A DNA stretch of 56,606 nucleotides, from contig RZZN01000025.1 of assembly GCA_009929855.1 (NCBI GenBank), positions 1 to 56,606 of the forward strand, written 5' to 3'. Every line of letters begins with the position of its first letter. Within the stretch, counting starts at the first letter, position 1. Origin of the DNA: Gammaproteobacteria bacterium (GTDB lineage Bacteria > Pseudomonadota > Gammaproteobacteria > Chromatiales > Chromatiaceae). The notes beneath the pieces were generated by a model. The model made no database searches, had not been told where the DNA came from, and saw nothing but the letters and a program-made list of their open reading frames with translations. The position numbers were made by a program, and so were the translations under genes. Below are positions 7,091 through 55,630 of the stretch, one piece after another.

Positions 7091-8507
7091 GCGCGGATTC
7101 GTCGGTCAGCACTCGTCGGTCGTGCTTGGGCGCGCGCTTGCGCTGATCTTCGTGATTCTCGGCGTCTTGCTGGCGGGGGTGATGAGCGGCTACTGGGTCC
7201 TGGTGCTGGAGCCGACACTGCGCGCCGAGGCCGAGAGCCGCGGTCGCGCACTCGCCCAGGCCCAGGCCACGACACTCGAGTCGGTCTTTGCCAGCGATGA
7301 GTCGCCACAGTCGCTGATGGCGGAGCTCGATACCCGACTCGACAGCATTCTCTTGCTGAAGGAGTCGGGCGCGGAGGGCCATCCGCTGACCAAGCGGATC
7401 ACGCTCGAGCTCGACCCCGCGGCCACCGGGTTGCCGCCGGAGCGCGCGACCCTGGCGCGCGGCATGGCAAGCTGCTCGACGTGTCTGCTCACCGAGGTCC
7501 CCATCTTTCATCCACGCAGCCGTCAATTGATCGGCATCGCCAGCTTCTACGGCAACACCCAATCACTGGACGATCTCATCGGCGACGTCCGCGGCACATT
7601 GCTGCTGACCGGTGGCATGGTCCTGCTGCTGATCGGCATGGCCTGGCTCGGGGTCTTGCGGCTGTTGCACCGACTGAGCGAAAGCGAGGCCAACCTGCGC
7701 AGTCTGCTGGATGTCGCCCCCTTTGCCATCGTCGTGATCGATCAGGACCAGCCGGTCATCCTCCGCGCCAATCAGGCCGCCACGCACTACCTTCACCTCG
7801 AGTTGAATGCCGCCGGGCATCTCGACAGTCCAGCCTGGCGCTCGCTGCTGGCCGATGGGCTGCCGAGCACGCATGGCGAGCACCGCGAGGCGCAGATACA
7901 GGACGGCGACGGCACCACCCACTGGGCCATGCTCTCGGTCACCAGCATCAGCGTCTCCGGCCTGCCACACCGCCTGGTGTCGCTGGTCGACGTCTCGGAG
8001 CTCAAGGCCATCCAGCAGCGGCTGCATCAAGCCGCGAACACCGATGGACTGACCAAGAGCTACAACCGCCGCTATCTCTTCGCACGACTCAGCGAGGAGA
8101 TGCGCCGGGCCGATCGCGATGGCCATCCACTCTCGATCATCCTGTTCGATCTCGATGCGTTCAAGGGCATCAATGACACCTTCGGCCATGCGGTGGGAGA
8201 CGAGGTGTTGGTGAAAGCAGCCGCGACCATGCGCGAGAGCGTGCGCATGGCCGGTGTCTGCGGGCGCTACGGCGGGGAGGAGTTTCTGGTCATCCTGCCC
8301 TTTGCGACGCGCCATATCGCCGTGGAGATCGCCGAGCGCATCCGCCTCGCGATCAGTGCCTTGACCTGGTCGCACGCTGGTCTACAAGTGACCATCAGTG
8401 GTGGCATCGCCGAGTATGCCGAGCATGACATCGACTCGCTGCTCGAGGTCGCCGACCGCAAGCTGTACGGCGCCAAGCAGTCCGGACGCAACCGGGTGTT
8501 CGTCTAA
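7080..8507 (+). CDS. Membrane-bound diguanylate cyclase with PAS-like and GGDEF domains
   Basis: Makes c-di-GMP from two GTP. Residues about 17-40 form a first membrane helix, a periplasmic segment runs to about 165, and a second helix lies at about 167-190. A PAS-like domain follows (about 205-325), then the GGDEF domain (about 335-475). The active-site loop is GGEEF (398-402), an active signature, and the metal-binding FDLDAFKGIND motif precedes it. The product-inhibition I-site RxxD normally sits five residues before the loop; here it reads RMAG, so feedback inhibition is probably absent. It overlaps the YfiR-like gene by 11 bp, the layout of Yfi-type systems in which the periplasmic partner holds the cyclase off. 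The ATG at 7080 is preferred over a TTG three codons upstream. Confidence 0.92.
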   Translation: MKNERGFVGQHSSVVLGRALALIFVILGVLLAGVMSGYWVLVLEPTLRAEAESRGRALAQAQATTLESVFASDESPQSLMAELDTRLDSILLLKESGAEGHPLTKRITLELDPAATGLPPERATLARGMASCSTCLLTEVPIFHPRSRQLIGIASFYGNTQSLDDLIGDVRGTLLLTGGMVLLLIGMAWLGVLRLLHRLSESEANLRSLLDVAPFAIVVIDQDQPVILRANQAATHYLHLELNAAGHLDSPAWRSLLADGLPSTHGEHREAQIQDGDGTTHWAMLSVTSISVSGLPHRLVSLVDVSELKAIQQRLHQAANTDGLTKSYNRRYLFARLSEEMRRADRDGHPLSIILFDLDAFKGINDTFGHAVGDEVLVKAAATMRESVRMAGVCGRYGGEEFLVILPFATRHIAVEIAERIRLAISALTWSHAGLQVTISGGIAEYAEHDIDSLLEVADRKLYGAKQSGRNRVFV

Positions 8508-8614: not shown

Positions 8615-9040
8615 TCAATCGTCACCCAGACCCAGGATATCGGACAGCACGGTATGGATCGCGGTCGCGAACTCGTCGAATGAGTGTGGCTTGACGAGAT
8701 AGTCGTCCACCTCGTACCGGAAGGCCGCCGCGCGATCACCGGATTCGTTCGAGGAGGTCACCACGATGACAGGCAGGTCGCGCAGGAGCGGATCGGCGCG
8801 CAGTCGGTCGAGAAATTGAATCCCGCTCATCTGTGGCAGATTCAGATCGAGCAGGATCAAGGCCGGCGGCGGATCGATCTTGCTCGCGCCCTCGCCGCGC
8901 AACATCGCCAAGGCTTCAGTGCCGGTGCGCGCCACATACAGCGGATTGAGGATCGCGTGCTTCTTCAGTGCGCGTTGCACTGTCATCACATCGACGCGGT
9001 CGTCCTCCACCAAGAGAATGCCCGCCTGTTCGTCGATCAT
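8615..9040 (-). CDS. Single-domain response regulator (Rcp1/CheY-like)
   Basis: 141-residue receiver domain without output domain. The acidic pocket is VEDD (residues 11-14), the phosphoacceptor is Asp65 in LILLDLNLP, followed by Thr95 (VVTSS) and Lys117 (LVKPHS). The long alpha5 and the PPPALILLDLNLPQMSG segment match the Rcp1-type regulators that pair with phytochrome-like histidine kinases. It lies 35 bp downstream of a CHASE histidine kinase on the same strand, almost certainly its phosphodonor. The start at 9040 gives a normal receiver N-terminus; a longer frame to 9334 overlaps the kinase and carries no domain. Confidence 0.9.
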   Translation of the reverse strand: MIDEQAGILLVEDDRVDVMTVQRALKKHAILNPLYVARTGTEALAMLRGEGASKIDPPPALILLDLNLPQMSGIQFLDRLRADPLLRDLPVIVVTSSNESGDRAAAFRYEVDDYLVKPHSFDEFATAIHTVLSDILGLGDD

Positions 9041-9075
9041 CTCTACTCCGGCCCCGCGGGGGGCAGACTGTCGGA

Positions 9076-11064
9076 TCAAGTATGGTCTTGGCTCGCTGGA
9101 TGCCGCGGCCAGGTGAAGACGAATCGGCAGCCCCGTCCCGGACCTGAATGAAGCTGGATGCGCCCTCCGTGCTCCTCCACCAGCTTCTTGACCAGCGCGA
9201 GACCAATTCCGGTGTCGCCCTGCAGGTCCTTGACCTTGAGCGTCTGAAACATCAGAAAGACTGTCTCGTGCAGCTCGGGTGGGATCCCCGGTCCATCGTC
9301 GGCGACGCTGAACTCGCAGCGCTCGCCCGCGCACTGGACCCCGACCTGGACCAGCCCCTCGGAGCGATCGTGATGCTTGATCGCATTGCCGATGAGGTTA
9401 CCCAGAACCATGCTCAAGGCCAATGGGTCGCCGTGCAAATTGGGTAGATCGGATGTGACCTCCACCTTGAATCCGGGCGGTGGCGCCAGCGAGTCGATCG
9501 TCTCGGCGAGCAGGCGCGCCAGATCGATCGGCTCGGCGGCACCAGGGACCCGGCCGATGCGTGAATAGGTCAACAACCCCTCGATCAAGGCGTTCATGCG
9601 CGCCACCCGGTCGCGCATCAAGGCGAGCTGCTCAGCGATCTCGGGGGTGAGTCGATCCTCGAGATCCTGGCTGAGCCAGGTCGCCAGGTTGGCGATTCCG
9701 CGCAGCGGCGCCTTGAGGTCATGCGAGGCGACATAGGCAAACTGCTCCAGATCACGGGCGCGCCGCTCCGATTCGGCAGTTCGTTTCGCAACCTCTTGCT
9801 CGAGGGTGAGATTCAGCAGCTTCAGTGCCTCCTCGGCCTGCCAGCGGACCTTGATCTCGCTATTCAAGGCGGCGTTCGAGCGCTCCAGCTCCAGGGTCCG
9901 CTCGGCGACCAGACGCCGCACCTGGCGGGCCTTGCCGATCATGCTCCAGAGATAGATGCAGGCCAACAGCGTGAAGGCGATCCCCGAACCCAGGATCAGC
10001 GTGCTGTTCGAGAGGTCGGACTCGAAATGTCCCGGGACCGACATCCCGACCAGGGTCCAGATCTGATCGCCCACCTCGAGCCGGTCGGTGAAGGTCAGGG
10101 GCAGCGCGGGCGGCACGCTTGGACGCATGGCCGTGTCGGCGAGCGCGCTCACCCGTGAGCGATGGACATACACTGGCTCCACATCCGTGGTCGCCTCGCC
10201 AGCATAGAGAGAGAGATCGATGCCAGCGGGGCGCAGGTTGGACAGCGCGGTGGCAACGATATCCTGGATGCTGAAGATCCCCCCGGCAAAGCCACGGGGT
10301 GCCACCTGCGTCTGCACCGGCGCCTGATCAGCGGACCGCCGCGGGGTCGACTCGTCTGCGTCCGTCTGATCATAGACCGGGATGAAGGCGGCAATCACCA
10401 TCACCGCACGCTCCCGCGCCTCCATGGGACTCGGAAAGGGCGCGGAGACTTGGGGCGAGCGGTCCGTGGCGGTCCGCAGCAAGGCCGGGAGGATTTCTGG
10501 CAGCGCGCCGAGATCGGCCCCGAGCAAATCCTTGTTGCTTGTATAGGGCTGGACATAGAGGATCGGAAAGAGCCTAGCGGGTGCGGCGACCGAGTCGGCG
10601 GAGACCTGACCCGGGCGTGCCAGTGAACGGATATCGAAGGGCGGAAAGGACTGACGTGCCTGATGGATGAGCGCGGCACGGGAGGCGGCATCGATCTGCG
10701 GCGCCCACAGTAGGGCTTGGGTGCCAGGATAGCGGCTCAACATCGGATCGACGAACTCGCGAAATTGGCGACGGGTCACTTCCTGCGAGGCGCCAAAGAA
10801 GCTCGCGATGTGTCTGACGCTGCCCAAGACATAGCCGGTCTCGCGACGCAGCGCCCAGAGACGATCGCGCGCGGCGTCATTGAAGGCATTACGCGCATGC
10901 TGACGCTCGACACCCGAGACATACCCGAACAAGAATCCGGTGGCGAGGATCCCCAGGATGGCGACCAGTGCGATGGGGGCATAGCTCGGCCAACGCGTCG
11001 ACTTGGGGACGGCCGGGGCCGCATCACCGGCGGTGGAGCGCACGGATGCGGTCCATTCTCTCAT
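9076..11064 (-). CDS. CHASE-domain sensor histidine kinase
   Basis: 662-residue inner-membrane kinase. A first membrane helix at about 28-50 is followed by an extracytoplasmic CHASE domain (about 80-300), a second helix at about 354-376, a coiled linker (380-440), and a HisKA domain with His448 in ASHDLKAPLRG. The HATPase domain has an N-box around 556-565 and G1 box DDGPGIP (589-595), with GIGLAL near 619-624. CHASE domains bind small extracellular ligands; the ligand is unknown. The DLKAPLRGI phosphorylation-site type is typical of kinases paired with single-domain regulators such as the one 35 bp downstream. Its ATG overlaps the stop of the 2-phosphoglycerate-kinase-like gene (ATGA), which fixes the start at 11064 rather than 11121. 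Confidence 0.92.
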   Translation of the reverse strand: MREWTASVRSTAGDAAPAVPKSTRWPSYAPIALVAILGILATGFLFGYVSGVERQHARNAFNDAARDRLWALRRETGYVLGSVRHIASFFGASQEVTRRQFREFVDPMLSRYPGTQALLWAPQIDAASRAALIHQARQSFPPFDIRSLARPGQVSADSVAAPARLFPILYVQPYTSNKDLLGADLGALPEILPALLRTATDRSPQVSAPFPSPMEARERAVMVIAAFIPVYDQTDADESTPRRSADQAPVQTQVAPRGFAGGIFSIQDIVATALSNLRPAGIDLSLYAGEATTDVEPVYVHRSRVSALADTAMRPSVPPALPLTFTDRLEVGDQIWTLVGMSVPGHFESDLSNSTLILGSGIAFTLLACIYLWSMIGKARQVRRLVAERTLELERSNAALNSEIKVRWQAEEALKLLNLTLEQEVAKRTAESERRARDLEQFAYVASHDLKAPLRGIANLATWLSQDLEDRLTPEIAEQLALMRDRVARMNALIEGLLTYSRIGRVPGAAEPIDLARLLAETIDSLAPPPGFKVEVTSDLPNLHGDPLALSMVLGNLIGNAIKHHDRSEGLVQVGVQCAGERCEFSVADDGPGIPPELHETVFLMFQTLKVKDLQGDTGIGLALVKKLVEEHGGRIQLHSGPGRGCRFVFTWPRHPASQDHT

Positions 11065-43727: not shown

Positions 43728-44080
43728 GAAACCCTGATCTAAACGGCTTTAGCCGCCCCGAGTAACGTATCGTGTGATTTTTTGCTTCGCAATCCCTAAA
43801 AATCCACATGACAGCGACTTTGGAGGCGATCTTGACCGTCGTTTCGATGAGTTCGGCCGGTTGACCCTGTCTTCGGGCAAACCAACCCATCAGTTCATGC
43901 CAGCCACCGCTTTCGGACCAGAAATAGGTTCGCCAAGGCAAACAGCACCTGGCACTGCGCGTGGTTTTTCTCCAGGCCCTTGTCGCGCACAGTCTTAAAG
44001 CCGAACAGGGTCTTGATGACATGGACGGGATGCTCGACGCGGGCACGCATCTTGGCCTTGAGCCGCTCCAACTCGATTTA
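43728..44080 (-). mobile_element. IS5-family insertion sequence remnant
   Basis: The 3' end of an IS5-type element. The transposase tail lies at 43895-44077 and the non-coding end runs to about 43728, just after the dtd stop. The outer end begins GGAAACCCTGATC, similar to terminal repeats of IS5 relatives. The opposite end and most of the transposase are missing, so it is dead. It marks the left boundary of the NACHT/caspase island. Confidence 0.65.
43895..44077 (-). pseudogene. IS5-family transposase, C-terminal fragment
   Basis: About 60 residues up to a TGA: ELERLKAKMRARVEHPV, then VIKTLFGFKTVRDKGLEKN and ALANLFLVRKRWLA. This is the typical IS5 transposase end, containing the catalytic Glu region (RARVEHPV) of the DDE triad. 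The N-terminal part with both Asp residues is missing, so no activity is possible. Confidence 0.75.
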
Positions 44081-44132
44081 TCATCATCGCCTACCGCAAC
44101 TCGCTCGTGACGGAAATCGGAGAGGGCGTCAC

Positions 44133-47100
44133 ATGACGGAACCATCGGGCACCCAACTGACCGGCGATGGCGCGACTGCCGCCGATTCCTCGACGGCACT
44201 CGGCGCCGGCGCCGCCATGGTCGACGGCAACAACTCCGGTGACATCAACACTGGACGCAAGGTCGTCGTCGGCGAAAGTGGTCAGGTCGTCTACGCGGAG
44301 CAAGGTGCCACCGTCGTCATCGGCGATGCGCCGATCAGGATGACAGCGGTGGAGCGCCAGAGCCTCCTCGGGCGATATCTTCAGCACCTCATCAGCCAGA
44401 ACCGCTACCTGCAGCTGCAGGGCATCCGTTCGGGCGGCCGCATCGTCAACATCGAGCTGGATCGGATCTACATCACCCTGCGCACCACACGCATTCCGGA
44501 AGAGCGGATACAGACCGACTGGCTCGCGGGTGAGGTCCTCTTGGCACCTGGAGAGCTGCATCGGCATCGTCGGGATGAGCCGCAGCGTGACCTCAGGCAT
44601 GTAACAGTGAATCAGGCACTTGCGGAACATCGGCGCCTCGTGGTCCTGGGCGACCCCGGCTGCGGCAAGACCACTCTCCTACGCTATCTCGGCTTGCTTT
44701 ACGCGAAAGACCGTGCGGAAGGCACCGGGCTGGCTCGGGAGAATCTTGGCCTGACCGAACCGGGAACGCTGCCGATCCTCATGCCCCTGCGCCAGATCGG
44801 GCGTTACCTCAAAGAGCACCGACCCAAGGACGATGGGACCGAGGGGCACTCACTCCTACTCCAGTTCCTGACGCGGGTGCTCGCCGCCGAGCGGATCGAG
44901 GTCCCCAGTGACTTCTTCGACGACTGGCTGACAGCCGGGAAGGCCGCTGTCCTGCTCGATGGACTCGATGAGATCGCCGAGCCGGATCTGCGTCGCCGCG
45001 TCGCAAGGCTCGTCGATGCCTTTACGCGCGCCTACCCGGAGTGCCGCTATGTGGTCACCAGTCGCATCCGCGGATACACCGACGCCTCGCGGCTGGGCGA
45101 AGGCTATGCCACGACCACCGTGCGCGATTTCTCGCCCGAGGACATCCGCCTTTTTCTCACCCAGTGGCATCGTTTGGTCGCCATTGGGCAGCATGGTCCC
45201 GGCGAGGCGGCCGAGACGCTCGCCGCGGCTCAGACCCGGCAGCTGATCGATGCGATCGACCAGAACGCGCGCGTCGGTGAGCTCGCCATCAATCCGCTGA
45301 TGCTGACCGTGATCGCCCTGATCCACCGTGATCAGATCAAGCTTCCGGACCGTCGCGCCGAGCTCTACCAAGAGGCGGTCGATGTCCTGCTGGGCAAATG
45401 GGACGAGGCGCGCGGCGTTCCCGAGTCGCGGGTCCTGAGCGACCGCGTGTTCGATGCGGGCGACCGCCGGCTCGTCTTGCAGCAGGTTGCCCTTGCCATG
45501 CACGAGCAGAACAGCAAGGAAATCGACGTCGGACCCTTGAAAGAGCTGCTCGCAGAGGAGCTTTGCAGCGCGATCAACGATGCTCGTGAGCTGGAGGCAA
45601 CCGTGGGTCGCTTTCTCGACGTCATTGCCGAGCGCACGGGCTTGTTGATTGCGCGCGGCGAGGGGACCTATGCCTTCTCTCATCTGACCTTCCAGGAATA
45701 TCTCGCGGCGTTGGCCGTTGCCGGGCGGGAGGACTATCTCGAATACACCTTGGCGCGCGCTTCGGATCCATGGTGGCGCGAGGTGATCCTGCTCGAAGTG
45801 GGCCACCTCAGCACCCAGAACAAGCAACGGACGACTCGACTCATCCGCGCCATCGCCGATTCCAAGCGCGAGCCGGAGCCCTACCACAACCTCGTCCTGG
45901 CAGCCGAGTGCCTGCGCGATGCCGGTGCCAACCGGATCCAGGGCGAACTCGAGAGCGAGCTTCGTAGGCGCTTGCAGCGCGAGCTCGACGCGCGTCCCCT
46001 TCGGGGGCCGTTAGGCATCGTGCACACGCTTCTCACAAGACGCATGACCCCGGAGCAGGCGGTGCGCCGACGCATTGCGGCGGCCGAGGCGCTGAGCCGG
46101 ATCGGCGGCGCACGATTCTGGTCGCGGCCGCACGGAGAGCCAGAGTGGGTCCGCATCCCGGCCGGCGACTTCATCATGGGTGAAGGCGCTGATGCGCACC
46201 GCGTCTCGCTCGCGGAATTCCGGATTGCGCGCGTACCCATCACCAATGCCCAATATTCACTCTTCATCGAGTCATCAGGCCATGAGACGCCCCGCGATTG
46301 GAATGGCCGGCGTCCGCCGCGGAACCGAGGGTCTCACCCGGTCACCGGAGTCCGATTTCAGGATGCCTTGGCCTATTGCCGTTGGCTTGCCGAGGCGACA
46401 GGGAAGTCGATCACACTGCCGAGCGAGGCAGAGTGGGAGAAGGCGGCACGGGGCTCCGAGGACGCGCGTGACTATCCATGGGGAGACGTCTTCGATGCGT
46501 TGAAGTGCAATGTCTGGGAGTCGAGATTCGACGGGGCGACGCCTGTCGGTATCTTTCTGAATGGTGCCAGTCCATACGGATGCCTGGATATGGCGGGCAA
46601 CGTCTGGGAGTGGACGCGTAGTCTCTGGGGCAAGGGCTTTCAAACGCCCGACTTTGGATATCCTTACGACCCGGCGGATTCCGCAAGAGAGGCGCTCGAT
46701 GCTGGAGGCGATGTCTACCGGGTCGTGCGCGGCGGCTCGTGGTCCGACCATCTAGTCCTCGTGCGCTGCGCCTCTCGCTACGGGGATTTTCTCGACCACC
46801 GGGGCTTCGACCTGGGCTTTCGTGTGGTGTTGCGCGCCTCCCACGTTCTTCTGCCTCTTCTTCTGGTCCCGCTCCCGAGCTGGACGACGCGCCGGGACAC
46901 CCGTGCCGAACGTCGAGCTCTACGCGTGGAAACGCGCCATCATCGAGCGCCTGGCAGGCGACCGGCTCCGGATCCACGAGACCGCGGCACAGGTGCTGCC
47001 GAAGCGCTGCGGAATTCCCTGGCTGGGCTTCGTCGTCTATCCGACGCACCGGCTCATCAAGCGCCGGAACGCCGTCAAATTCACCCGGCGCTTCGAGTGC

Positions 47101-47507
47101 AACCTCGACGCCTACCAGGCCGGGCGCATCTCTTTTGCGGAGCTCGACGCCAGCGTGCAGGGCTGGATCAACCATGTCCGCTACGGGGACACCTGGGGGC
47201 TGCGCGGGCATCTGTTTGCTGGCCACCCGATTCCCCGCCAGGAGCGCTGAGCAGGCCCGAGACGGTGGGCGTGAAGCCGCGCTGCACGCGGCGAGGGAAG
47301 GCTCCCCCGCACCCCCTCCGGAGTCCGGAATCCAGAGTTTCGGAGGTCGGAGCACCAGAGACCGGAGTCAGGAAACAGGGGAGGCGCGCAACACCACCCG
47401 AAAGCCCAGGGAGCCGTGCCGGAAGTCGGGGCGAGCCCAGAAGCGAAAGGCGCAGCGCGCTACGTCAGGATGGTAGTACCACGAGCCGCCGCGCACGACC
47501 CGGTTGA
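44133..47507 (+). CDS. NACHT ATPase with DGR-variable FGE-sulfatase/C-type-lectin-like domain (3' read-through)
   Basis: STAND-type sensor candidate. From the ATG at 44133 (GGAGAGGG upstream): Gly/Asn-rich repeat module (about 10-65, [18 protein letters not shown]); linker; NACHT ATPase with Walker [10 protein letters not shown] (173-181), Walker B VLLDGLDE (273-280) and the C-terminal [12 protein letters not shown]; helical region; FGE-sulfatase domain (about 671-903) with [13 protein letters not shown] and GNVWEW. The variable part is 867-903, after RVVRGGSW. In other DGR targets this fold binds ligands with its variable surface. Homology to the second NACHT protein stops at about residue 903. 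The frame then runs on for about 220 low-complexity residues, out of frame through an RT fragment, to 47507. That tail looks like an accidental read-through caused by a deletion. An upstream start at 43980 lies in the IS remnant and is rejected. Confidence 0.85.
46605..46842 (+). repeat. Inverted repeat, left arm (238 bp)
   Basis: From TGGGAGTGGACGCG to GCGCCTCCC, the end of the first NACHT-FGE gene matches the end of the second on the opposite strand (47379-47616). The arms are of identical length, without gaps by eye. Matches are dense except in the last third, the variable region. Spacing between arms is 536 bp and contains the RT fragment. Confidence 0.8.
46719..46842 (+). repeat. DGR variable repeat VR1
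   Basis: 124 bp from CGGGTCGTGCGC to GCGCCTCCC. Flanks match VR2 almost perfectly; the core (46743-46813) differs at about 24 positions, of which about 21 fall in codon positions 1 or 2, so nearly all change the residue. This pattern is that of adenine-specific mutagenesis from an AAY-rich template repeat. The GC-rich 3' end, where an initiation-of-mutagenic-homing site would lie, is conserved. Confidence 0.75.
46906..47250 (+). pseudogene. DGR reverse transcriptase, C-terminal fragment
   Basis: About 114 residues in the +1 frame relative to the NACHT gene, ending at TGA 47248-47250. Signature of the thumb and C-terminus of DGR-type RTs: [75 protein letters not shown]. The fingers and palm with the YxDD catalytic motif are missing, as are any Avd accessory gene and template repeat, so the unit is dead. 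Its orientation right after VR1 matches a normal DGR order (target, Avd, TR, RT) from which the centre has been deleted. It shares the region with the read-through tail of the NACHT gene. Confidence 0.8.
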
Positions 47508-50271
47508 CGGCGTCTCCAGCATTGATTGCCTCTCGCATGGAATCGGTTGGGTCGTAAGGATATCCAAAGTCGGGCGTTCGAAAGCCCTTACCCCAGAGAC
47601 TGCGCGTCCACTCCCAGGTATTGCCGAGTAGATCATGGAGACCGAACCCGTTGGGCGGGAAGCATCCAACGACCGAGGTCTCATCGATTCCCGAGTCTGA
47701 ATAGTTTGCGCGATTCGGATCCGGGTCATCACCCCACGAGAAGATGGTATCCAAGCGGCCGCCTCGTGCCGCCTTCTCCCACTCCAACTCGCTCGGCAGC
47801 GCGACCTGCCATGCCTTGTCGCGCACCAAGGTGGCCGCGGCGCATCCGGCCAACGCCGGTGCGCCAGCCAACTGCTCATGCAGCCAGTGGCAATAGGCCA
47901 AGGCTTCGTGCCAATCGATCCAGCGCACGGGCCGGCTGTCGGGATCGCGCAACGCATCCGTGTCGCCCGGCCGGAATCCGGTCGCCGTCACGAAGGCGCG
48001 GAACTGCGCCACCGTGACTGGATAGCGTGCGATGTGGAAGTCGGGCGTTGGAGTCAGTGCGTCGTTGAGCTCGTATCGGGGAACCGCGTACCCGACGACC
48101 TTGGCGACCCGCTGCGCGTCCGAGTGGCGTGTGCCGATCCGAAACGCGGAATCGGCCGGGACATGAACGAATCCGAGCCAGTCATCGGCTGGTAGATAAA
48201 AGCGGTCAGGGTCGAAACGGGGATCGCCGAGCTCGGCGAGCACATCCCCCGCCAGAGCGCGCGCTTGCGCGGACATGCCGCCATCATCCGGGTGGACCGG
48301 CAGCGACGCGGCGAGCCAGCTCGCGACCCGTGTCTTGATGGCGCGTGTGCGATCGCGCGTGTCGACGGCGCCGACACCGATCTCGCGGAGCTGGAGTCCA
48401 GCCATCAAGGCACAATGCCAGTCGGCGGCGCCCAGTTGCCCTTGTGCTCCAAGCTTGGTGATCGAGGTCCCGCCGACCAGCTCGTCGGCCGCGCTGGAGC
48501 CGCGCTCGACCTTCGCCAGTCGGGCGGCCAGCGGCAGCACGACCTGCCAATGACCCGGCGCCAGGCGGGCTACGCGAACGCACTCGGCGGGGAAATCATC
48601 CTGTGCTTGCAGATGACAGGCCGCGAGGAACTCCTGAAAGGTGCGATGCGGAAAGCTGAACTGCCGCTCGCCATCCTTCTCGCCTTGGCCGATCAGCAGA
48701 CCGGCTCGCTTCTCGATATAGTCCACGACCACGGCGGCCTTGTCCCGGCTGTCCCGCAGCAGCGGCCGCAGGGCACGAATCAAACGGTCTTCCCCGATAT
48801 CCGCCGTACGGTCCGCCGCGGGGTCCGCCAGGCGCGCGGGACTGCTGCTCTCGTCATGCAGCTTGAAGGCAAGCTCTTCGAGCGCCCCGCGCAGATCCGC
48901 GAGCTTGAGGGTTGGAATGGCCAGCTCGTCGAGCAGCGCCTTGTCGGCACCGATCTGGCGGTTCCAACGCAGCATCAGCAGCTCGACCGATTCGTTGTAG
49001 AGATCGGCCCGATCGTCCGGTAGACGGCCGCGGTTGGTGTGGAGGGTCGCCATCAGTGTCAGCAGCAGCGGATTGCGGGTGAGCGGCTCGAGGTCCGGGC
49101 GGTTGCGAGCGGCGAGCAAGTCGATGCGCTTGCGATCGGCGTCGCCCGGCGAGCGCCATCCGCGCCGGACCAGTGCCCGGTACCAAGCCTCGATGAACTG
49201 CTCGATCCGCTCATCGCTCAAGTCGTCCAGCGCGTAGACGCCGCGCCGCGGATCGGCCCCGCTGGGCCAGGCATAGGGCCGCGCGGTCAGGAGGAAACGG
49301 CACTTGGGGCCGGCGGTGCGCATCAGCTCTCGGACGGCACCCATCACCCGCTCGCGTGCGTTGCCGGCGCCGCATTCGTCCAGCCCGTCCAAGAGGATGA
49401 GTGCACCGCTACAGCGTGCGATGCGCTGCACATAGTCCAGTGTCTTCGCCGAGAGTCCGTAGCCGCTGGATTGGAGCTCGTCCCCGATGTGAGCCCAGAG
49501 GTCTCCAGCCCGTACCGGTCGACCGCTATCCGGAAGCCGGTCGGCGAATCGTCGCAGGACGACCCGGATCGGGAGCAGGGGGCCGTGTGTCCAGGTCTCT
49601 CCGAGCGCGTCGAGCTGGTCTTGATGTCCTTGCCAGGCTTGCGCGAGCGCGAGTAGGACATGGGCGCCGAAGGTGCTCTTGCCGCTGCCTGGCTTGCCAA
49701 GCAGCGTCAGCTCGCGATGCACCGCCAGCGCTTCGAGTGCCGAAACCCGGCGCTGCTCGCCGGGCTCGCGAGGCTGGTCGCGCGTACCGTCCCGCTCGCG
49801 CGCGAGCCACTCAGGAAGGGTGACGTCTTCGGGTATCGCAAGACTGGTGTCGAGCGGGACGTAAACATCGGCGAGCTGCAAGGGCTCGCGGCTCGGATCC
49901 TGCGCGGCGGCATCGATCTCGCCGAGCTTGAGGCCGGCCAAGTCGGCCGCCAACGCATGCAGATAGAGCGCGATGACCGACTGTGCTTCCGCCGGATCCT
50001 CGCCGCCCTGAACGGCCTGCGTGATGATCTGGATGAAGTCGCGGCCGATGAAATGACCATTGGGCACCTGGACCGAGCCCTCGATTGCGGCGCCGCCTTG
50101 GGTCGCGATGCAGGGCGCGGACGAGTCGGGGCGAGCGTCGTCCCCGCCGTGCTGGCTTGATCGGACCGTTTGCGGATTTGTCGCTTCAGCCGACGCCAGC
50201 TTGGCTTGTAGCTCGGCGATCTGGCGCCGCAACGCCTCGATGTCGGTCGGGTCATGAGGCTCCGCTGTCAC
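47368..50271 (-). CDS. NACHT ATPase with DGR-variable FGE-sulfatase/C-type-lectin-like domain
   Basis: 967-residue STAND-type sensor. A coiled N-terminus (about 5-35) is followed by a Gly-rich adaptor module (57-90, GGAAIEGSV then GHFIGRDFI), a helical segment, NACHT ATPase with Walker A GKPGSGKST (192-200), Walker B LILLDGLDE (291-299), a sensor Arg in LLTARPYAW, FPHRTFQEFLAA and helical repeats. The FGE-sulfatase-like domain covers about 744-967: [28 protein letters not shown]. The variable positions are about 932-955, ending GFRVVLRAS and a normal stop, unlike its opposite neighbour. The start is GTG at 50271, overlapping the caspase stop (GTGA), so sensor and effector are translationally coupled. 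The known role of such pairs is to sense a target with the variable domain and activate the effector; the ligand is unknown. Confidence 0.88.
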   Translation of the reverse strand: MTAEPHDPTDIEALRRQIAELQAKLASAEATNPQTVRSSQHGGDDARPDSSAPCIATQGGAAIEGSVQVPNGHFIGRDFIQIITQAVQGGEDPAEAQSVIALYLHALAADLAGLKLGEIDAAAQDPSREPLQLADVYVPLDTSLAIPEDVTLPEWLARERDGTRDQPREPGEQRRVSALEALAVHRELTLLGKPGSGKSTFGAHVLLALAQAWQGHQDQLDALGETWTHGPLLPIRVVLRRFADRLPDSGRPVRAGDLWAHIGDELQSSGYGLSAKTLDYVQRIARCSGALILLDGLDECGAGNARERVMGAVRELMRTAGPKCRFLLTARPYAWPSGADPRRGVYALDDLSDERIEQFIEAWYRALVRRGWRSPGDADRKRIDLLAARNRPDLEPLTRNPLLLTLMATLHTNRGRLPDDRADLYNESVELLMLRWNRQIGADKALLDELAIPTLKLADLRGALEELAFKLHDESSSPARLADPAADRTADIGEDRLIRALRPLLRDSRDKAAVVVDYIEKRAGLLIGQGEKDGERQFSFPHRTFQEFLAACHLQAQDDFPAECVRVARLAPGHWQVVLPLAARLAKVERGSSAADELVGGTSITKLGAQGQLGAADWHCALMAGLQLREIGVGAVDTRDRTRAIKTRVASWLAASLPVHPDDGGMSAQARALAGDVLAELGDPRFDPDRFYLPADDWLGFVHVPADSAFRIGTRHSDAQRVAKVVGYAVPRYELNDALTPTPDFHIARYPVTVAQFRAFVTATGFRPGDTDALRDPDSRPVRWIDWHEALAYCHWLHEQLAGAPALAGCAAATLVRDKAWQVALPSELEWEKAARGGRLDTIFSWGDDPDPNRANYSDSGIDETSVVGCFPPNGFGLHDLLGNTWEWTRSLWGKGFRTPDFGYPYDPTDSMREAINAGDAVNRVVRGGSWYYHPDVARCAFRFWARPDFRHGSLGFRVVLRASPVS
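47379..47502 (-). repeat. DGR variable repeat VR2
   Basis: 124 bp, same length as VR1. It differs from VR1 at codons 1, 2, 4-7, 11, 13-17, 19 and 21-23 of the core, while the codons for Arg-Cys-Ala, two Arg and Leu-Gly-Phe-Arg are kept. It ends 9 bp before the stop codon of its gene, the usual DGR position. Confidence 0.75.
47379..47616 (-). repeat. Inverted repeat, right arm (238 bp)
   Basis: Partner of 46605-46842. Both arms encode the same C-terminal FGE segment in opposite orientation; intramolecular recombination between them could invert the RT-fragment segment. Confidence 0.8.
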
Positions 50272-51770
50272 TGTGGCTCATCTCCAAGACCTTGGAGTCG
50301 TGCCAGGACAAACTTCGTCACCGGTCCGGCGACACCCGCCAGAATGGGATTCCCGAAGGCACTGACGATGGCACCGATCGCGCCCGGCACCATGTTCGCG
50401 AGGCCATCGATGAGCTTGGCCAGCCGACCATCCTGATCGGGAAGGGGGCTTGCCAATTCGGCCTTGATCCGCTGCACCTGTTGGCTCGCGGTCTCCAACC
50501 GCGTTGCGGATGCACCTCGAGCGACACTGTGCTCCAGGCGCGCGAAGAGTGCATCGAGCTCGGCGGGCTGGATACCGGACGACGCCGCCGCCCGTGCGCT
50601 GCGCCCGATGGCGTTAACCGAGCCGCGAATGGAGTCCACCGTCGTCTGATCGCCAAAGAGGATCTTGTCGCGACCGACGAAATCCCCTCCACTGGTCACA
50701 CTGCCACCGACATGGGCGCCGCCCCTTGTATCGATCCGCGTTCCGGTGTTGATGGCCCCGGTGTTACTGCCGCGCACCAGCACACCGCGGGCACCTACCG
50801 CTGCCGCGCCTGGCCCTTGCGCAATTGCGCCGTCTCCGTTCAAGGTTGCATTGTCGGTGTCCCCGGTCTGCTGAAGGATCTGGCGGAGCCTCGCCTCTGC
50901 TCGAGCGGGCGCGATCTCGCGGGTAGCGGTGCCCTCGGGGAGGTCCGCGGAGCGGTCGAATGTCCCGAGCGCCGTCGAGCCGCGGTAGAGTGCGACCGCG
51001 ATGGATCCGACCCCTTTGAGCAGGGTCAGCTCCGGCTCTTGCGATTGGTTGAATTGGGTTCGCACCCCTTCTTCGACACTGAAATAGATATGCGTGTAGA
51101 GGTCGAAGGCGCTGACGTAGCCGCGGCTGCTCACTGTGCCCGTGCCCCGCAATCCGTCCACCAGTGCCTGCGTGAAGAGGGTCAGAGGACCGGCGCCGAT
51201 GTATGAGACTTGCCCCTCGCGGCAGGCCGTGATGATGATGCGCCCTTCGCCCGTCGCGAGGATGGCGGCGGCGGTGGCGTCAGGAAGTGGATGACCGCTT
51301 AAGCTTTTCCGGCCGGTCTCCAGGGTCGGCGAAACCTGGCCTGAATGGCAGGCGTTGATCAAAAGGAGTAGCCGCTTGGCCTTGATCGCGCGCAGCTTCT
51401 GGATCAACTCCCCTTGGCGCAGCCCACTGCCGACGGCAATCTGGTTTCCCTGCAATCGTGTGTCGTGGGTGGTGAGGTAGTAGTCACCGTCCGCACCATA
51501 GTCTCCGTGACCACAGAAGAAGAGAAAGACCGTGTCGTCGGCGCCGGCATGGAGAGCAAGCTGATCCAATGCTTCGATGATCCCGGCGCGCGTCGCCACT
51601 GAATCATGCAGAACCGCGACCTGATCCGGTGGATAGGCGCAACAATCTGGATCCACGAGCACCGCGGCGACAGCCTCGGCGTCGGCGGCCGTGATGGGAA
51701 CGTCGAGTTCAGGCGCATGGCAATAGGACCCGATGCCAATGAGCAGCGCTCGACCTTGACTGAACGGCAT
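50268..51770 (-). CDS. Caspase-like (C14) protease with adaptor modules
   Basis: 500 residues. The start at 51770 (MPFSQGRALLIGIGSY) has GAGGAGG 6 bases upstream, clearly better than 51815. The p20-like caspase domain spans about 4-260, with catalytic His88 in FFCGHGDYG and Cys141 in LLINACHSG, both intact. Residues about 308-375 form a Gly-rich repeat tract: NGDGAIAQGPGA then GSNTGAINTG (module A), followed by GGAHVGGSV and GGDFVGRDKI (module B). A helical C-terminus (about 395-500) contains a hydrophobic stretch (MVPGAIGAIVSAFGNPILAGVAG). Module A resembles the N-terminus of the plus-strand NACHT protein; module B that of the minus-strand one. The stop overlaps the NACHT GTG. The inferred role is a death effector triggered by the NACHT sensors. 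Confidence 0.9.
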   Translation of the reverse strand: MPFSQGRALLIGIGSYCHAPELDVPITAADAEAVAAVLVDPDCCAYPPDQVAVLHDSVATRAGIIEALDQLALHAGADDTVFLFFCGHGDYGADGDYYLTTHDTRLQGNQIAVGSGLRQGELIQKLRAIKAKRLLLLINACHSGQVSPTLETGRKSLSGHPLPDATAAAILATGEGRIIITACREGQVSYIGAGPLTLFTQALVDGLRGTGTVSSRGYVSAFDLYTHIYFSVEEGVRTQFNQSQEPELTLLKGVGSIAVALYRGSTALGTFDRSADLPEGTATREIAPARAEARLRQILQQTGDTDNATLNGDGAIAQGPGAAAVGARGVLVRGSNTGAINTGTRIDTRGGAHVGGSVTSGGDFVGRDKILFGDQTTVDSIRGSVNAIGRSARAAASSGIQPAELDALFARLEHSVARGASATRLETASQQVQRIKAELASPLPDQDGRLAKLIDGLANMVPGAIGAIVSAFGNPILAGVAGPVTKFVLARLQGLGDEPQ

Positions 51771-52172
51771 CGCAACCTCCTCGGGGTGTCGACCAGAGAC
51801 CGGCCGAGCGACCACTCCATCGAGACGCTCGCCAACAAGGCCAGAGCTTAGTTCACCCGCGTGCGAAAGTGAACACGCAAACGGGCAACGTCTCTTGGGC
51901 GTCTGCTTTGCGCTTCAATCTTGCCAAACGGCGATCATGCTCTTTCGATGGGTTACGACCGGCTCGCCGGTTCTATCGGCGCGAGTCCTGTGACGGCTCA
52001 TGGGCCACCGCCGCAGCTCGGTGCGTCTGGATTTGGGTCTCGACAAAGACGATGGCGGCCGAGTCGTCGGAATCAGCTGATCCTGGATGTTCCGCCACTC
52101 GCCCCGTCATCGGATGCCGTGGGACTGTCCGCAGAGTCAGCGGTGAGGAAAGTCGCGATCCGATTGGGCGCA
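51771..52172. other. 402-bp gap between caspase gene and helicase gene
   Basis: Region upstream of the caspase gene and downstream of the helicase stop. It holds an interrupted inverted repeat GTTCAC/GTGAAC (51851-51856 and 51869-51874, 12-nt spacer) about 80 bp before the caspase start, a possible operator. Around 51930-52080 on the minus strand, a short stretch reading AAIVFVETQIQT then, after a frame change, ELRRWPMSRH, vaguely recalls a transposase fragment; this is not firm enough to call. Confidence 0.35.
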
Positions 52173-54968
52173 TCACCATCCCCGCGACAACAACTCCTGC
52201 ATCGAGAAACCATTCAAAACCGTCGCGCAGGTCTCCCAGTCGGCATCCGCGACCTTGCTGTATTTCACATCGAAGGGATTGCGCGTGGCGGTTGTCCGGT
52301 CGATGAGTTGATCGGCGGCCTGCTCGTCCTTGAGCGCCATCTGGACCCAGACTCCTTCCAGGGTGTCAGGGATCTGGCCGAACAGGTCATGAATCGCTTC
52401 CAGACGATCCGCCAGCACTTGATGAACACGATCTTCGACCGAATCGCGATAGCGTAGATTGGCGATCCAGACCTCGTCGCGCGCTTGGCCGATGCGCTGA
52501 ATACGGCCCTTGCGCTGCTCCAGCCGGGTCGGGTTCCACGGCAGGTCGATATTGATGAGCGTGCCAAGACGCTGGAGATTCAGCCCTTCAGATGCTGCAT
52601 CGGTGCCCAGCAGCAACTTGAGATCGCCCGCGCGGACACGCTCTTTCAGGACATTGCGATCGCAGCGCTGAAAGGTGCCATCACGCCACCATCCGGAACG
52701 ATGGCTACCGGCGTAGAGCCCAATATCCACGCCGACAAACTCGGGGCGCTTGGCCAGTTCATCGCCGACCCAGCGGACCGTATCGTAATACTGCGAGAAG
52801 AGGATGCAGCCCAACTCCAGCCAGGGGCGAGAAACAGCCGGATGCGTACCGCGTAGATAGCCAATCAGTGCCTCCAGCTTGGGATCGTTGTTGCCCCCCT
52901 CGCGCAACAGTTTGAGACAGCGCTCCAGCGCGGCGCGCTCTTCGTCGGTGAAATTCTTGAAATCGCTGGCGCCCGATGCCGACCGACCGACGGCTGGGAT
53001 CTCTTCTTCGGCGTCATCCTCATCCTCATCGTCCGGCGGCTCGACCTCTCCAACGAGGAGTTTGCTGATCGTGCGGCGTCCGGCTTCCATCGAGCTCCCC
53101 AAACGCCGTAACAACAATGTCTTGAAGAAGCCCGCGCCCTTCACACGTTGCTGCAAGAGTTGGGAAAACCGCTCGGCTTCCTCATAGGCTTCGTGGAGAT
53201 AGCCGCCTAGGACGAGCGCCCCGGTCTCGTCCTCGCCAAACAGCTTCACCCTGACCTTGGGCAGAAAATAGCTCCCGGTCGCGGGGTTGACAGTCGCTTC
53301 GAGATAGGCGCGGGTGCGGCGCACGATGCAACGCAGGAGCGGATTGAAGCGCTCCCCATAGCCCGGCAATAGCCCCTGCTGGAGTTGCACCCGCTGGATG
53401 GCCTTCGGCAGTTGCTCCAAACTCTCGGGGGTGAACTGCCAGCGCGTGTCGCCGGCATTCAGGCGACGGCGGATGCGCTCAAACCCTGGATCTTCGTGCC
53501 GTGACGGTAGCGGATCGCGGACATACTGCCAGCCATCACGCACATCGTCGATCGGGATCGTCACGTCGCCCGTGGCGATGTCCAGGCAATGGCTGGCACG
53601 GAACCAGGGGCTGGTCTGCGTCCATCCGCCGAGCACGCCCTCATGGCCGTGAGACAGGATATGCAGCAGATCCCACGCCTCGACCGGATGCAGTTGGACC
53701 GGCGTCGCGGTCGCCAGGAGCAGGCTTTTGGTCTTCGGCCCGATCTCACGCAGAAACGTCATGAGCTTGTTCGGTTCCGCGCGCTCGTTGATTTCATCGG
53801 CCTCGGCGTCCACGCGCGGCACTTTGCGGCGACGGGCGCGATGCGCCTCATCCACGATCACGCAGGTATAGCGTCGCCCCAGCAGTTGATTCAGTGCCTC
53901 CGGCAACCCGCGCACCACCAGCCCTTGCGAGACCAGCCCGATCCGGCGCGGGCATTTGCCCAGCGATTTCACCCCGTCACCTGGATATTCCAGATCGTTT
54001 TCATCGATCCAGGCACGCCCATTCCAGCGCGCGGACGGTAACCGTAACAGCTCCATCAATTCGTCCTGCCACTGCTGGAGCAGCGGCTTGGGAGCCAGTA
54101 CCAGGATCGGGCCGCCCTCGGGATCGTCGAGCGCCATCAGCAGCGCGGCCATCGCCAGTTGGACGGTTTTCCCCAGACCGACCTGATCGGCTAGCAACAG
54201 GCGCGCGCCGCCGAGTCGATGCCGTTCCAGTGCCAGACGGGCAAAATACTTCTGATGCGGCCACAGCCCCTGATCGCGGCGATAGACCGGCATTTCGACG
54301 GCGACCGCGGCCGCCGCCTGCCCCGGATCGGCCAACGTCGGCACCTCGGCCGGTTCGATGACCCGGCGTGTGATGATGCGCCGCACGTCCTGCGCGATGA
54401 ACGGACAGCAGGCGAGATCCAGGGCGCGGGCATCGTTCCAGAGCGCGTCGAATTCCTCCTGCACCCAGGCGATGGTTTCGGGGTCGTCGTCTTCCCACAG
54501 CAGCTCGTAGTTCAGTGTCCAGGCCGTGGCGCTTTCGTTGACACTGCCGAGAAAGGCCGTGGCCGAGCCATCGGCTCGCCGCACGATGCCGGCCTTGCCG
54601 TGGATCAGGCCAAAAGCCGTATCGGGCAGGACCCGGATCGCGATGCGTTGGTTGGTCAGGGCTTCATAGAGTGCTTGGTAGCGCGGGCGCGCATTGGGGG
54701 GCGCGTCCTCCGGTTTGCCCGCGCACCAGCTTCGACGCAGCGCCGCCTGAGCGGAGGTCGCGGTGGCCAAATCTTGCGGGTCGAGGTCGGAGTTGCAGAT
54801 GATCCGCACCGGTCCCTTAACGCCGGCGAGTGCTTCCCCGGCAATCTCGAACAGGCTGGAGCGGAAATAGCCCGCGATGCGGTCGTAGGACACCGCTCCA
54901 TCCAGACGCTGCTTCAACAGGGTCTGATCGAGTCGGTGACGGCGGCTGGAGTGGCGCTTGAGCGTCAT
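52173..54968 (-). CDS. Anti-phage SNF2-type helicase with N-terminal PLD-like domain
   Basis: 931 residues. The N-terminal phospholipase-D-like nuclease domain (about 10-190) has one HxK motif, IHGKAG (His123, Lys125), with FLGSVNES (139-146). The SNF2/HepA-like superfamily 2 helicase follows: Walker A ADQVGLGKT (260-268), DEAH in VIVDEAHRA (371-378), LLATATPVQ, and C-terminal motifs TDAASEGLNLQ and GRIQRIGQ. Proteins of this build occur in defence islands next to DUF1156 DNA methylases. The ATG at 54968 follows the DUF559 gene after 32 bp. A charged insert (about 640-670, EPPDDEDEDDAEEE) splits the two helicase lobes. Not recognisably a type I HsdR. Probable role is restriction or translocation on phage DNA. 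Confidence 0.88.
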   Translation of the reverse strand: MTLKRHSSRRHRLDQTLLKQRLDGAVSYDRIAGYFRSSLFEIAGEALAGVKGPVRIICNSDLDPQDLATATSAQAALRRSWCAGKPEDAPPNARPRYQALYEALTNQRIAIRVLPDTAFGLIHGKAGIVRRADGSATAFLGSVNESATAWTLNYELLWEDDDPETIAWVQEEFDALWNDARALDLACCPFIAQDVRRIITRRVIEPAEVPTLADPGQAAAAVAVEMPVYRRDQGLWPHQKYFARLALERHRLGGARLLLADQVGLGKTVQLAMAALLMALDDPEGGPILVLAPKPLLQQWQDELMELLRLPSARWNGRAWIDENDLEYPGDGVKSLGKCPRRIGLVSQGLVVRGLPEALNQLLGRRYTCVIVDEAHRARRRKVPRVDAEADEINERAEPNKLMTFLREIGPKTKSLLLATATPVQLHPVEAWDLLHILSHGHEGVLGGWTQTSPWFRASHCLDIATGDVTIPIDDVRDGWQYVRDPLPSRHEDPGFERIRRRLNAGDTRWQFTPESLEQLPKAIQRVQLQQGLLPGYGERFNPLLRCIVRRTRAYLEATVNPATGSYFLPKVRVKLFGEDETGALVLGGYLHEAYEEAERFSQLLQQRVKGAGFFKTLLLRRLGSSMEAGRRTISKLLVGEVEPPDDEDEDDAEEEIPAVGRSASGASDFKNFTDEERAALERCLKLLREGGNNDPKLEALIGYLRGTHPAVSRPWLELGCILFSQYYDTVRWVGDELAKRPEFVGVDIGLYAGSHRSGWWRDGTFQRCDRNVLKERVRAGDLKLLLGTDAASEGLNLQRLGTLINIDLPWNPTRLEQRKGRIQRIGQARDEVWIANLRYRDSVEDRVHQVLADRLEAIHDLFGQIPDTLEGVWVQMALKDEQAADQLIDRTTATRNPFDVKYSKVADADWETCATVLNGFSMQELLSRGW

Positions 54969-55000: not shown

Positions 55001-55480
55001 TCATTCGTCGCCGGCCAACGGCGCGCGTGGTGGCACCCGATCCAGAATGCTCCGAAATGCCGCCGGATCGGCGCGATCGTTTAAGCCCCTCTCCCCCGCG
55101 GGGAGAGGGGTTGGGGTGAGGGGGCGCCCGCATCGATCCGCCAACACCTGAACAATCGACTCAAGAACCGTCTCGCCCTGCTGTAAAACCTCGTTGTTCC
55201 AGTAACGCAAGACCCGATACCCCTGGCTTTTCAGAAATTGCGTGCGTCTGTCGTCGTAATCCCTCTGTTGCTGATGCTGGGAGCCATCGATCTCGACCAC
55301 GAGCTTGCACTCGCGACAGAGAAAATCCACGATGTATTGACCAACCGGCACCTGGCGTCGGAATTTCTGGCCGAGCAACTGCCGGTTGCGCAGGCGTTGC
55401 CACAGCCAGCGTTCGGCGTCGGTACTGTTTTGGCGAATTTCTCGGGCGCGTTGCTGTTGCAGCGGTGGGTTCTTGTGCAT
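55001..55480 (-). CDS. DUF559 (VSR-like) endonuclease-fold protein
   Basis: 159 residues. The DUF559 core (about 12-115) belongs to the PD-(D/E)XK/VSR superfamily: TDAERWLWQRLRNRQLLG, FRRQVPVGQYIVDFLC, LVVEIDGSQH and FLKSQGYRVLRYWNNEV. The DF, E and DG acidic residues fit the nuclease centre. The natural C-terminus seems to be near residue 118; it continues with PLTPTPLPAGERG, the translation of a dispersed repeat, then 28 more residues to 55001. The start at 55480 (MHKNPPLQQQ) is typical; the longer frame also runs through a repeat. It sits between the DUF1156 methylase and the helicase genes on the same strand, but DUF559 genes are mobile hitch-hikers and it may not belong to the system. 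Confidence 0.85.
   Translation of the reverse strand: MHKNPPLQQQRAREIRQNSTDAERWLWQRLRNRQLLGQKFRRQVPVGQYIVDFLCRECKLVVEIDGSQHQQQRDYDDRRTQFLKSQGYRVLRYWNNEVLQQGETVLESIVQVLADRCGRPLTPTPLPAGERGLNDRADPAAFRSILDRVPPRAPLAGDE
55085..55128. repeat. Dispersed C-rich palindromic repeat inside DUF559 gene
   Basis: CCCCTCTCCCC/GGGGAGAGGGG hairpin followed by TTGGGGTGAGGG. It matches the repeat at 55524-55562 and is widely known as a scattered element in proteobacterial genomes. It lies in the 3' end of the DUF559 frame and is read as PLTPTPLPAGERG. Confidence 0.75.
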
Positions 55481-55523
55481 GATGGCTGTCTGTCTGCGAG
55501 CGCTGAGTGTTCCGAGAGATTCT

Positions 55524-55612
55524 CCCCTCACCCCAACCCCTCTCCCCGCTGGGGAGAGGGGCTTTTCTCCCTTCTCCCCTGGGGGAGAAGGGCCGGGGAT
55601 GAGGGGGAGAAG
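55524..55612. repeat. Pair of dispersed C-rich palindromic repeats
   Basis: CCCCTCACCCC, then CCTCTCCCCGCTGGGGAGAGG, a short spacer, and TTCTCCCCTGGGGGAGAAGG with GGGGATGAGGG. Two hairpins of the same element type as at 55085, placed between the DUF1156 methylase stop and the DUF559 start. They may act as mRNA structure between the two genes. Confidence 0.7.
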
Positions 55613-55630
55613 CGACAAGGCACAGCGCAA

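Follow-up and report, generated by a model that had tools for sequence, protein, structure and literature searches.

The closest described systems are those of Dore et al. 2024 (PMC10907252), the relevant passages of which report NACHT/STAND-CLec targets in pairs, degenerate loci and action in trans in Thiohalocapsa, as well as a population in which broken variants of a locus occur together with intact ones. Our searches for literature on DGRs together with Chromatiaceae found only this paper, and a search for degenerate DGRs found none; this is no claim that the literature lacks recombination between a variable repeat (VR) and a template repeat (TR) as a way in which DGRs die. Here we examine a stretch of 56,606 nucleotides (hereafter the window) from a draft Chromatiaceae genome, which very probably holds a relict DGR that died in at least two events, a VR1-TR recombination and a deletion of about 1.2 kb, and left behind two fixed sensor ends. 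The same genome carries two type-II reaction-centre genes (PF00124), whose presence and adjacency suggest that the host is a purple bacterium. The features of the window that matter are listed below; L078 (genome G149) and L079 (genome G079) are DGR loci of the same family.

44133 to 46841, + strand: gene 1, putative NACHT-FGE sensor, as far as its homology to intact relatives reaches (Pfam NACHT, E=1.3e-11; FGE-sulfatase, E=7.1e-50)
46719 to 46842, + strand: VR1, fossil variable repeat (gap-free alignment to VR2, comparison of codon positions and of template adenines)
46842 to 46907, + strand: 3' flank of the template-repeat type fused to VR1 (aligns to the sequence 3' of the L078 TR; its first bases are TR-type, not VR-type)
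46842 to 47507, + strand: read-through of gene 1, 221 codons after loss of the stop (ORF list; stop at 47505-47507)
46908 to 47250, + strand: C-terminal remnant of a DGR reverse transcriptase (RT), with YVDD and everything before it missing (83% identity to the G149 RT; equivalent to residues 319-419 of the 427-aa L079 RT)
47368 to 50271, - strand: gene 2, putative NACHT-FGE sensor of 967 aa with its own stop shortly past the VR (Pfam NACHT, E=2.4e-9; FGE-sulfatase, E=4.1e-45)
47379 to 47502, - strand: VR2, fossil variable repeat with a normal VR-type 3' end (same comparisons as VR1, and comparison of 3' ends)
50268 to 51815, - strand: gene for a caspase-fold protease, immediately upstream of gene 2 (Pfam Peptidase_C14, E=3.7e-18; PADLOC caspase, E=9.5e-20)

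The original prediction, made from the bare sequence, placed two VRs at the 3' ends of two opposed NACHT-FGE genes. This is indeed the arrangement: genes 1 and 2 are convergent, both score above the Pfam cut-offs for NACHT (PF05729) and FGE-sulfatase (PF03781), and each combines a NACHT NTPase with a C-terminal FGE domain that carries the VR. The folds were assigned through Pfam and through sequence similarity to proteins of known structure, including that between the gene 2 domain and the FGE-type domain of TvpA from Treponema denticola (PDB 2y3c; sequence search, E=1.6e-11). TvpA is a DGR-varied protein that is not known to be fused to a NACHT domain. As the start of gene 1 we chose ATG 44133, the first likely ATG (the ORF list, 43980-47507, starts at TTG 43980); at its other end the read-through crosses the RT remnant in another frame. 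For gene 1 PADLOC returned two weak matches, the better at E=0.0017; for gene 2 it returned none. Both genes presumably encode sensors, and these would probably signal to the neighbouring caspase-like protease, which by its position is the likely effector.

VR1 and VR2 align over 124 columns without gaps, at 80% identity. The prediction had described equal-length 124-bp repeats with near-identical flanks and about 24 core differences, some 21 of them at codon positions 1 and 2 and nearly all residue-changing, and its counts were right: there are 24 differences in the core, none in the first 24 nt and one in the last 31 nt. The core differences are not spread evenly in the gap-free alignment but number 8/13/3 at codon positions 1/2/3, and all 16 changed core codons are non-synonymous. 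Homology extends upstream of the VRs, so that the whole is a 252-nt inverted repeat (81%). In the 123 nt of gene directly 5' of the VR, however, the 20 differences are distributed 7/5/8 over the codon positions, which indicates that the pattern is limited to the repeat. Near-identical repeat ends beside a flank with this many differences are expected if one template overwrote both repeats.

Adenine mutagenesis from a template, the mechanism originally proposed, predicts where in the repeat the differences should lie. Because the genome itself provided no template for comparison, the templates of related genomes were used as reference. Nineteen of the 25 VR1-VR2 differences fall on adenines of the L078 TR, which has 25 of them (P=1.1e-11 over 114 columns, P=1.5e-11 over 112; these and the following P values assume independent sites, and the true ancestral template may differ from the L078 TR). 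At core codon positions 1 and 2 alone, 17 of 21 differences are on L078 adenines (23 adenines among 46 sites, P=1.4e-4), and with the templates of four further relatives 15 to 18 of the 25 differences are on A (P 1.3e-7 to 5.0e-6). Most of the differences thus sit on adenines of a relative's template; the six that lie off L078 adenines (46753, 46760, 46762, 46788, 46792 and 46823) count against the relict reading. At four of these VR1 has T and VR2 has C, and at 46762 and 46792 all five templates compared (L078, L079, L080, L081 and L083) have C where VR1 has T. This pattern would fit drift since the repeats were last rewritten, chiefly in VR1, unless the ancestral template was different.

Differences off template adenines would also fit an account in which there had never been a DGR at the two genes. 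Their FGE domains would then be ordinary paralogs on which diversifying selection had acted, and the repeat ends would have undergone gene conversion. FGE domains are indeed widespread, and variability of the C-terminal loop is a general feature of them. Yet a DGR-type RT remnant between the genes and a template-type flank on VR1 already contradict this account; moreover, the adenine match holds even within codon positions 1 and 2, and third positions take 3 of the 24 core differences as against 8 of 20 in the upstream flank. We give it practically no chance. The location of most differences on relatives' template adenines, the RT remnant between the repeats and the template-type flank of VR1 instead support VR1 and VR2 as genuine DGR variable repeats by origin.

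The sequence beside VR1 preserves a trace of how the locus may have come apart. Immediately 3' of the repeat VR1 reads CCCACGTTCTTC, the same as the L078 TR, and the 3' end of VR2 reads CCCCTGTTTCC, which is close to the L078 VRs and is a variable-repeat end; at that spot the TR has A and the VR has C in four of four relatives compared (L078, L079, L080 and L083). The likeness to the TR flank begins at 46842 and continues to about 46907, where it jumps to the interior of the RT. We infer from this flank that VR1 is joined to the former 3' sequence of the TR. The remnant itself is a 112-residue stretch (46912-47247) between the repeats, 108 residues of which align to the G149 RT at the identity listed above, and alone it gave no Pfam match at E<=0.01. 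Compared with L078 it has a dN of 0.155 and a dS of 1.37 over 101 codons, values that speak for purifying selection across the entire divergence rather than for present function. Parts of the machinery, namely the RT C-terminus and the TR-type flank, are therefore still in place between the two genes.

The prediction had implied live diversification, and this the assembly does not bear out. When VR1 and the L078 TR were searched against the whole of its 4.81 Mb, only VR1 and VR2 themselves rose above noise, and a search of the assembly for a template-like pattern (exact and narrow) found none; in a control, nine of nine VRs taken from relatives found the TR belonging to them at E<=5.4e-23 (local blastn, database size set to 4.8 Mb). 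A full RT query (E<=1) recovered only the remnant between the repeats, and the N-terminal part of the RT (E<=0.001) had no match in the genome. An Avd query gave nothing at E<=1 in the assembly, a search without a positive control in this genome, although this query did recover Avd at many loci of relatives. No RT with a palm and YxDD was found in the assembly, where residues 319-419 of the 427-residue reference remain. The proposed check for a template in the genome thus came up empty, which tells against present activity but not against a DGR origin. Nothing in this assembly points to a working DGR; the VR diversity of both sensor genes looks frozen now, and activity is presumably lacking in the living population as well.

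It could be argued that the DGR is intact in the organism, and that misassembly joined VR1 and TR through their common 3' end of about 30 nt while RT, Avd and TR were left on dropped contigs. The draft consists of 414 contigs, so a template or RT could sit on a lost one, a point that weighs against the relict reading too, and the near-identical VR and TR ends seen in relatives can be crossed by short-read assemblers. However, the junction at 46907/46908, where TR flank meets the inner part of the RT, has in the alignment no repeat by which the two could have been joined falsely; the whole-assembly RT and TR searches find nothing else in an assembly with a completeness of 100% and a contamination of 3.18%; and broken RTs are common among the closest loci, as described below. 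We regard such a misassembly as quite improbable.

Rewriting of the VRs might also be continuing, either through a TR and RT that act in trans from another place or in other cells of the same population. Trans action and coexisting intact variants are both reported, in the passages at hand, for Thiohalocapsa PB-PSB1 (PMC10907252), and where intact and broken variants coexist sister cells may still be active, which is a further point against our reading. The gene-1 ortholog of G149 is likewise a case of a VR on a different contig from its TR. In the window's own assembly, though, there is neither a TR-like sequence nor another DGR RT, and the T of VR1 at 46762 and 46792 should have been erased by fresh rewriting, unless the template had T. 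Ongoing rewriting seems very improbable to us.

Orthologs of gene 1 were found at 72% in G149 (contig C216) and at 73% in G145 (contig C140), over 670 aa searched, and an ortholog of gene 2 at 66% in the same G145 contig. The VR of the G149 ortholog differs from the TR of that genome, on another contig, at 18 sites, 17 of them adenines, from which we conclude that it was probably written from a distance. In G145 the orthologs of gene 1, caspase and gene 2 form a row on the same strand (L136, 773-7855), both sensor genes end in VR-like repeats, and no match to RT or Avd was found in the 12 kb fetched; the row is a possible conserved three-gene module. A comparison of its two VRs shows 18 differences, of which 14 are on L078 adenines (P=2.8e-8), whereas against the L078 TR itself 10 of 19 and 9 of 20 differences are on adenines, a poorer fit which indicates that their template was another. 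From these comparisons it looks as though two sensors and a caspase make up a DGR target set with or without an RT beside it.

Two further observations concern the surroundings of the sensors. Near them lies a PLD-helicase gene (52173-54968, - strand), with a full-length PADLOC match to PLD_Helicase of 783 bits, and the area looks like a defence island. A 41-nt inverted repeat (55083-55123 and 55524-55564, 98% complementary) occurs around a small ORF (55001-55630, - strand), which by eye we take to resemble a DUF559-type nuclease.

A family-wide search with the RT remnant matched 27 of 210 genomes, its own included, and 14 stretches around such matches were fetched and scanned for repeat pairs. 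The differences on TR adenines are 20/21 in L078 (VR1), 20/21 in L080, 19/24 in L081, 18/18 in L084, 11/11 in L085, 11/13 in L086, 6/6 in L087, 6/6 in L088, 18/18 in L090 and 12/12 in L091; where these adenines read as T on the printed strand, they are 19/20 in L079, 11/12 in L083, and 18/20 and 15/20 in L089. The scan gave no clear repeat pair for L082. Convergent (inverted) VR pairs around a TR are present in 5 of the 14 loci scanned (L078, L079, L080, L081 and L083), and Avd is antisense to the RT in L079, L081 and L083. The full order in relatives is target, TR, antisense Avd, RT, convergent target.

On the model of these relatives, we propose that the ancestor had target 1, TR, antisense Avd, RT and convergent target 2 in that order, and that its DGR, by error-prone copying, wrote an adenine-rich template into two NACHT-FGE sensor genes at their 3' ends. 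The DGR would then have died by at least two events, the order of which we infer. In one, VR1 and TR recombined in their common 3' end, with the loss of the end of gene 1 and of the template core; VR and TR are themselves direct repeats and able to recombine. In a second, a deletion would have taken out Avd together with the RT up to about residue 318, its size of ~1.2 kb being an estimate on the L079 map from ~66 nt past the TR to RT codon 318, with the whole antisense Avd included, in an ancestor whose spacing may differ. The outcome would be two different and now fixed sensor ends.

Among the closest RT loci, 14 with the window included, four cover 343-346 of the 346 RT core residues and ten are broken, covering 27-267. 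All of these share at least 45% identity with the remnant, a cut chosen after the list was seen that left out 21 of 36 rows, and the family search used a C-terminal RT query, which favours loci that keep the C-terminus. An A-type TR-VR pair is kept in five of the ten broken loci (L078, L080, L081, L085 and L088) and absent in four (the window, L142, L143 and L144), and L082 is doubtful; for L143 (G054) the repeat pair was read directly. With ten of 14 loci broken, it is conceivable, if unlikely, that DGR loss is a recurrent and perhaps selected end state in this RT group, in which useful NACHT receptors are fixed by VR-TR recombination and RT deletion. If true, this would mean that a diversifying system turns into fixed sensors.

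Broken RTs as a general rule we rejected, as they characterize the closest group only: most of the loci below 45% identity that were examined, and most of the 27 loci outside the family, have an RT match over nearly the whole core, the exceptions being partial matches, several of them at contig ends. Nor do we claim that the RT C-terminus is kept for a reason, given the C-terminal query. A search with the N-terminal part also found N-terminal-only pieces (L139, L140 and L141, some at contig ends), so both kinds of remnant exist; this search caught many other RTs, and its matches were not counted.

Individual loci offer details of their own. In L080, sequence with an ORF (7675-8256, + strand) that by eye is transposase-like, presumably akin to a REP-associated transposase, has replaced the 5' part of the RT, and the ORF occupies the expected place of this part and of most of Avd. 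In L082 a TR-like sequence rich in Asn leads almost directly into RT residue ~274 (8975-9250, - strand), a TR-to-RT deletion resembling that of the window. Of the 27 loci outside the family, the one that matches the remnant best is L051 (6224-8312), from a Chloroflexota MAG of the Anaerolineae, where an RT with 77% identity, higher than in any family match except G149, is accompanied by an antisense Avd; judged by this similarity, horizontal transfer of the RT between phyla is likely.

Together with its relatives the window makes up a graded series, from complete loci through loci with the RT broken and the TR kept to loci with both lost. L079 resembles the window in its convergent targets, between which its TR and RT lie, but is complete, with a 427-aa RT, a 117-aa antisense Avd, a TR and two VRs. 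L078 has an RT 83% identical in the common part and likewise truncated (residues 287-419), convergent VRs and part of Avd; unlike the window it has kept its TR, and of the 21 differences between this TR and its VR1, 20 fall where the TR has A. The locus shows a route from hypermutating immune-like sensors to fixed genes, and the graded series makes it testable whether such sensors stay under selection once diversification stops.

By target architecture as PMC10907252 describes it, the window appears akin to the clade 5D STAND/NACHT-CLec loci, e.g. DGR 3 and DGR 6 of Thiohalocapsa sp. PB-PSB1, which have a peptidase gene nearby and two targets, each with a STAND NTPase in the middle and, at the C-terminus, a CLec domain (FGE in DGR 6) bearing the VR. 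The peptidase is caspase-fold in the window, trypsin-like in DGR 6 and of the S8 family in DGR 3, and unlike both of these loci the window's assembly gave no TR, Avd or complete RT. Its loss resembles that of the degenerate PB-PSB1 loci, among which loss of the RT or TR is included, but differs in mode: the window has a VR-TR recombinant end and a truncated RT, whereas the passages concerned stress transposons and MITE-like arrays and mention deletion too (PMC10907252). Measured against what those passages set out, the window holds a relict of a known class, and what it adds to that class is a locus whose machinery was found nowhere in its assembly and in which a VR-TR junction is visible.
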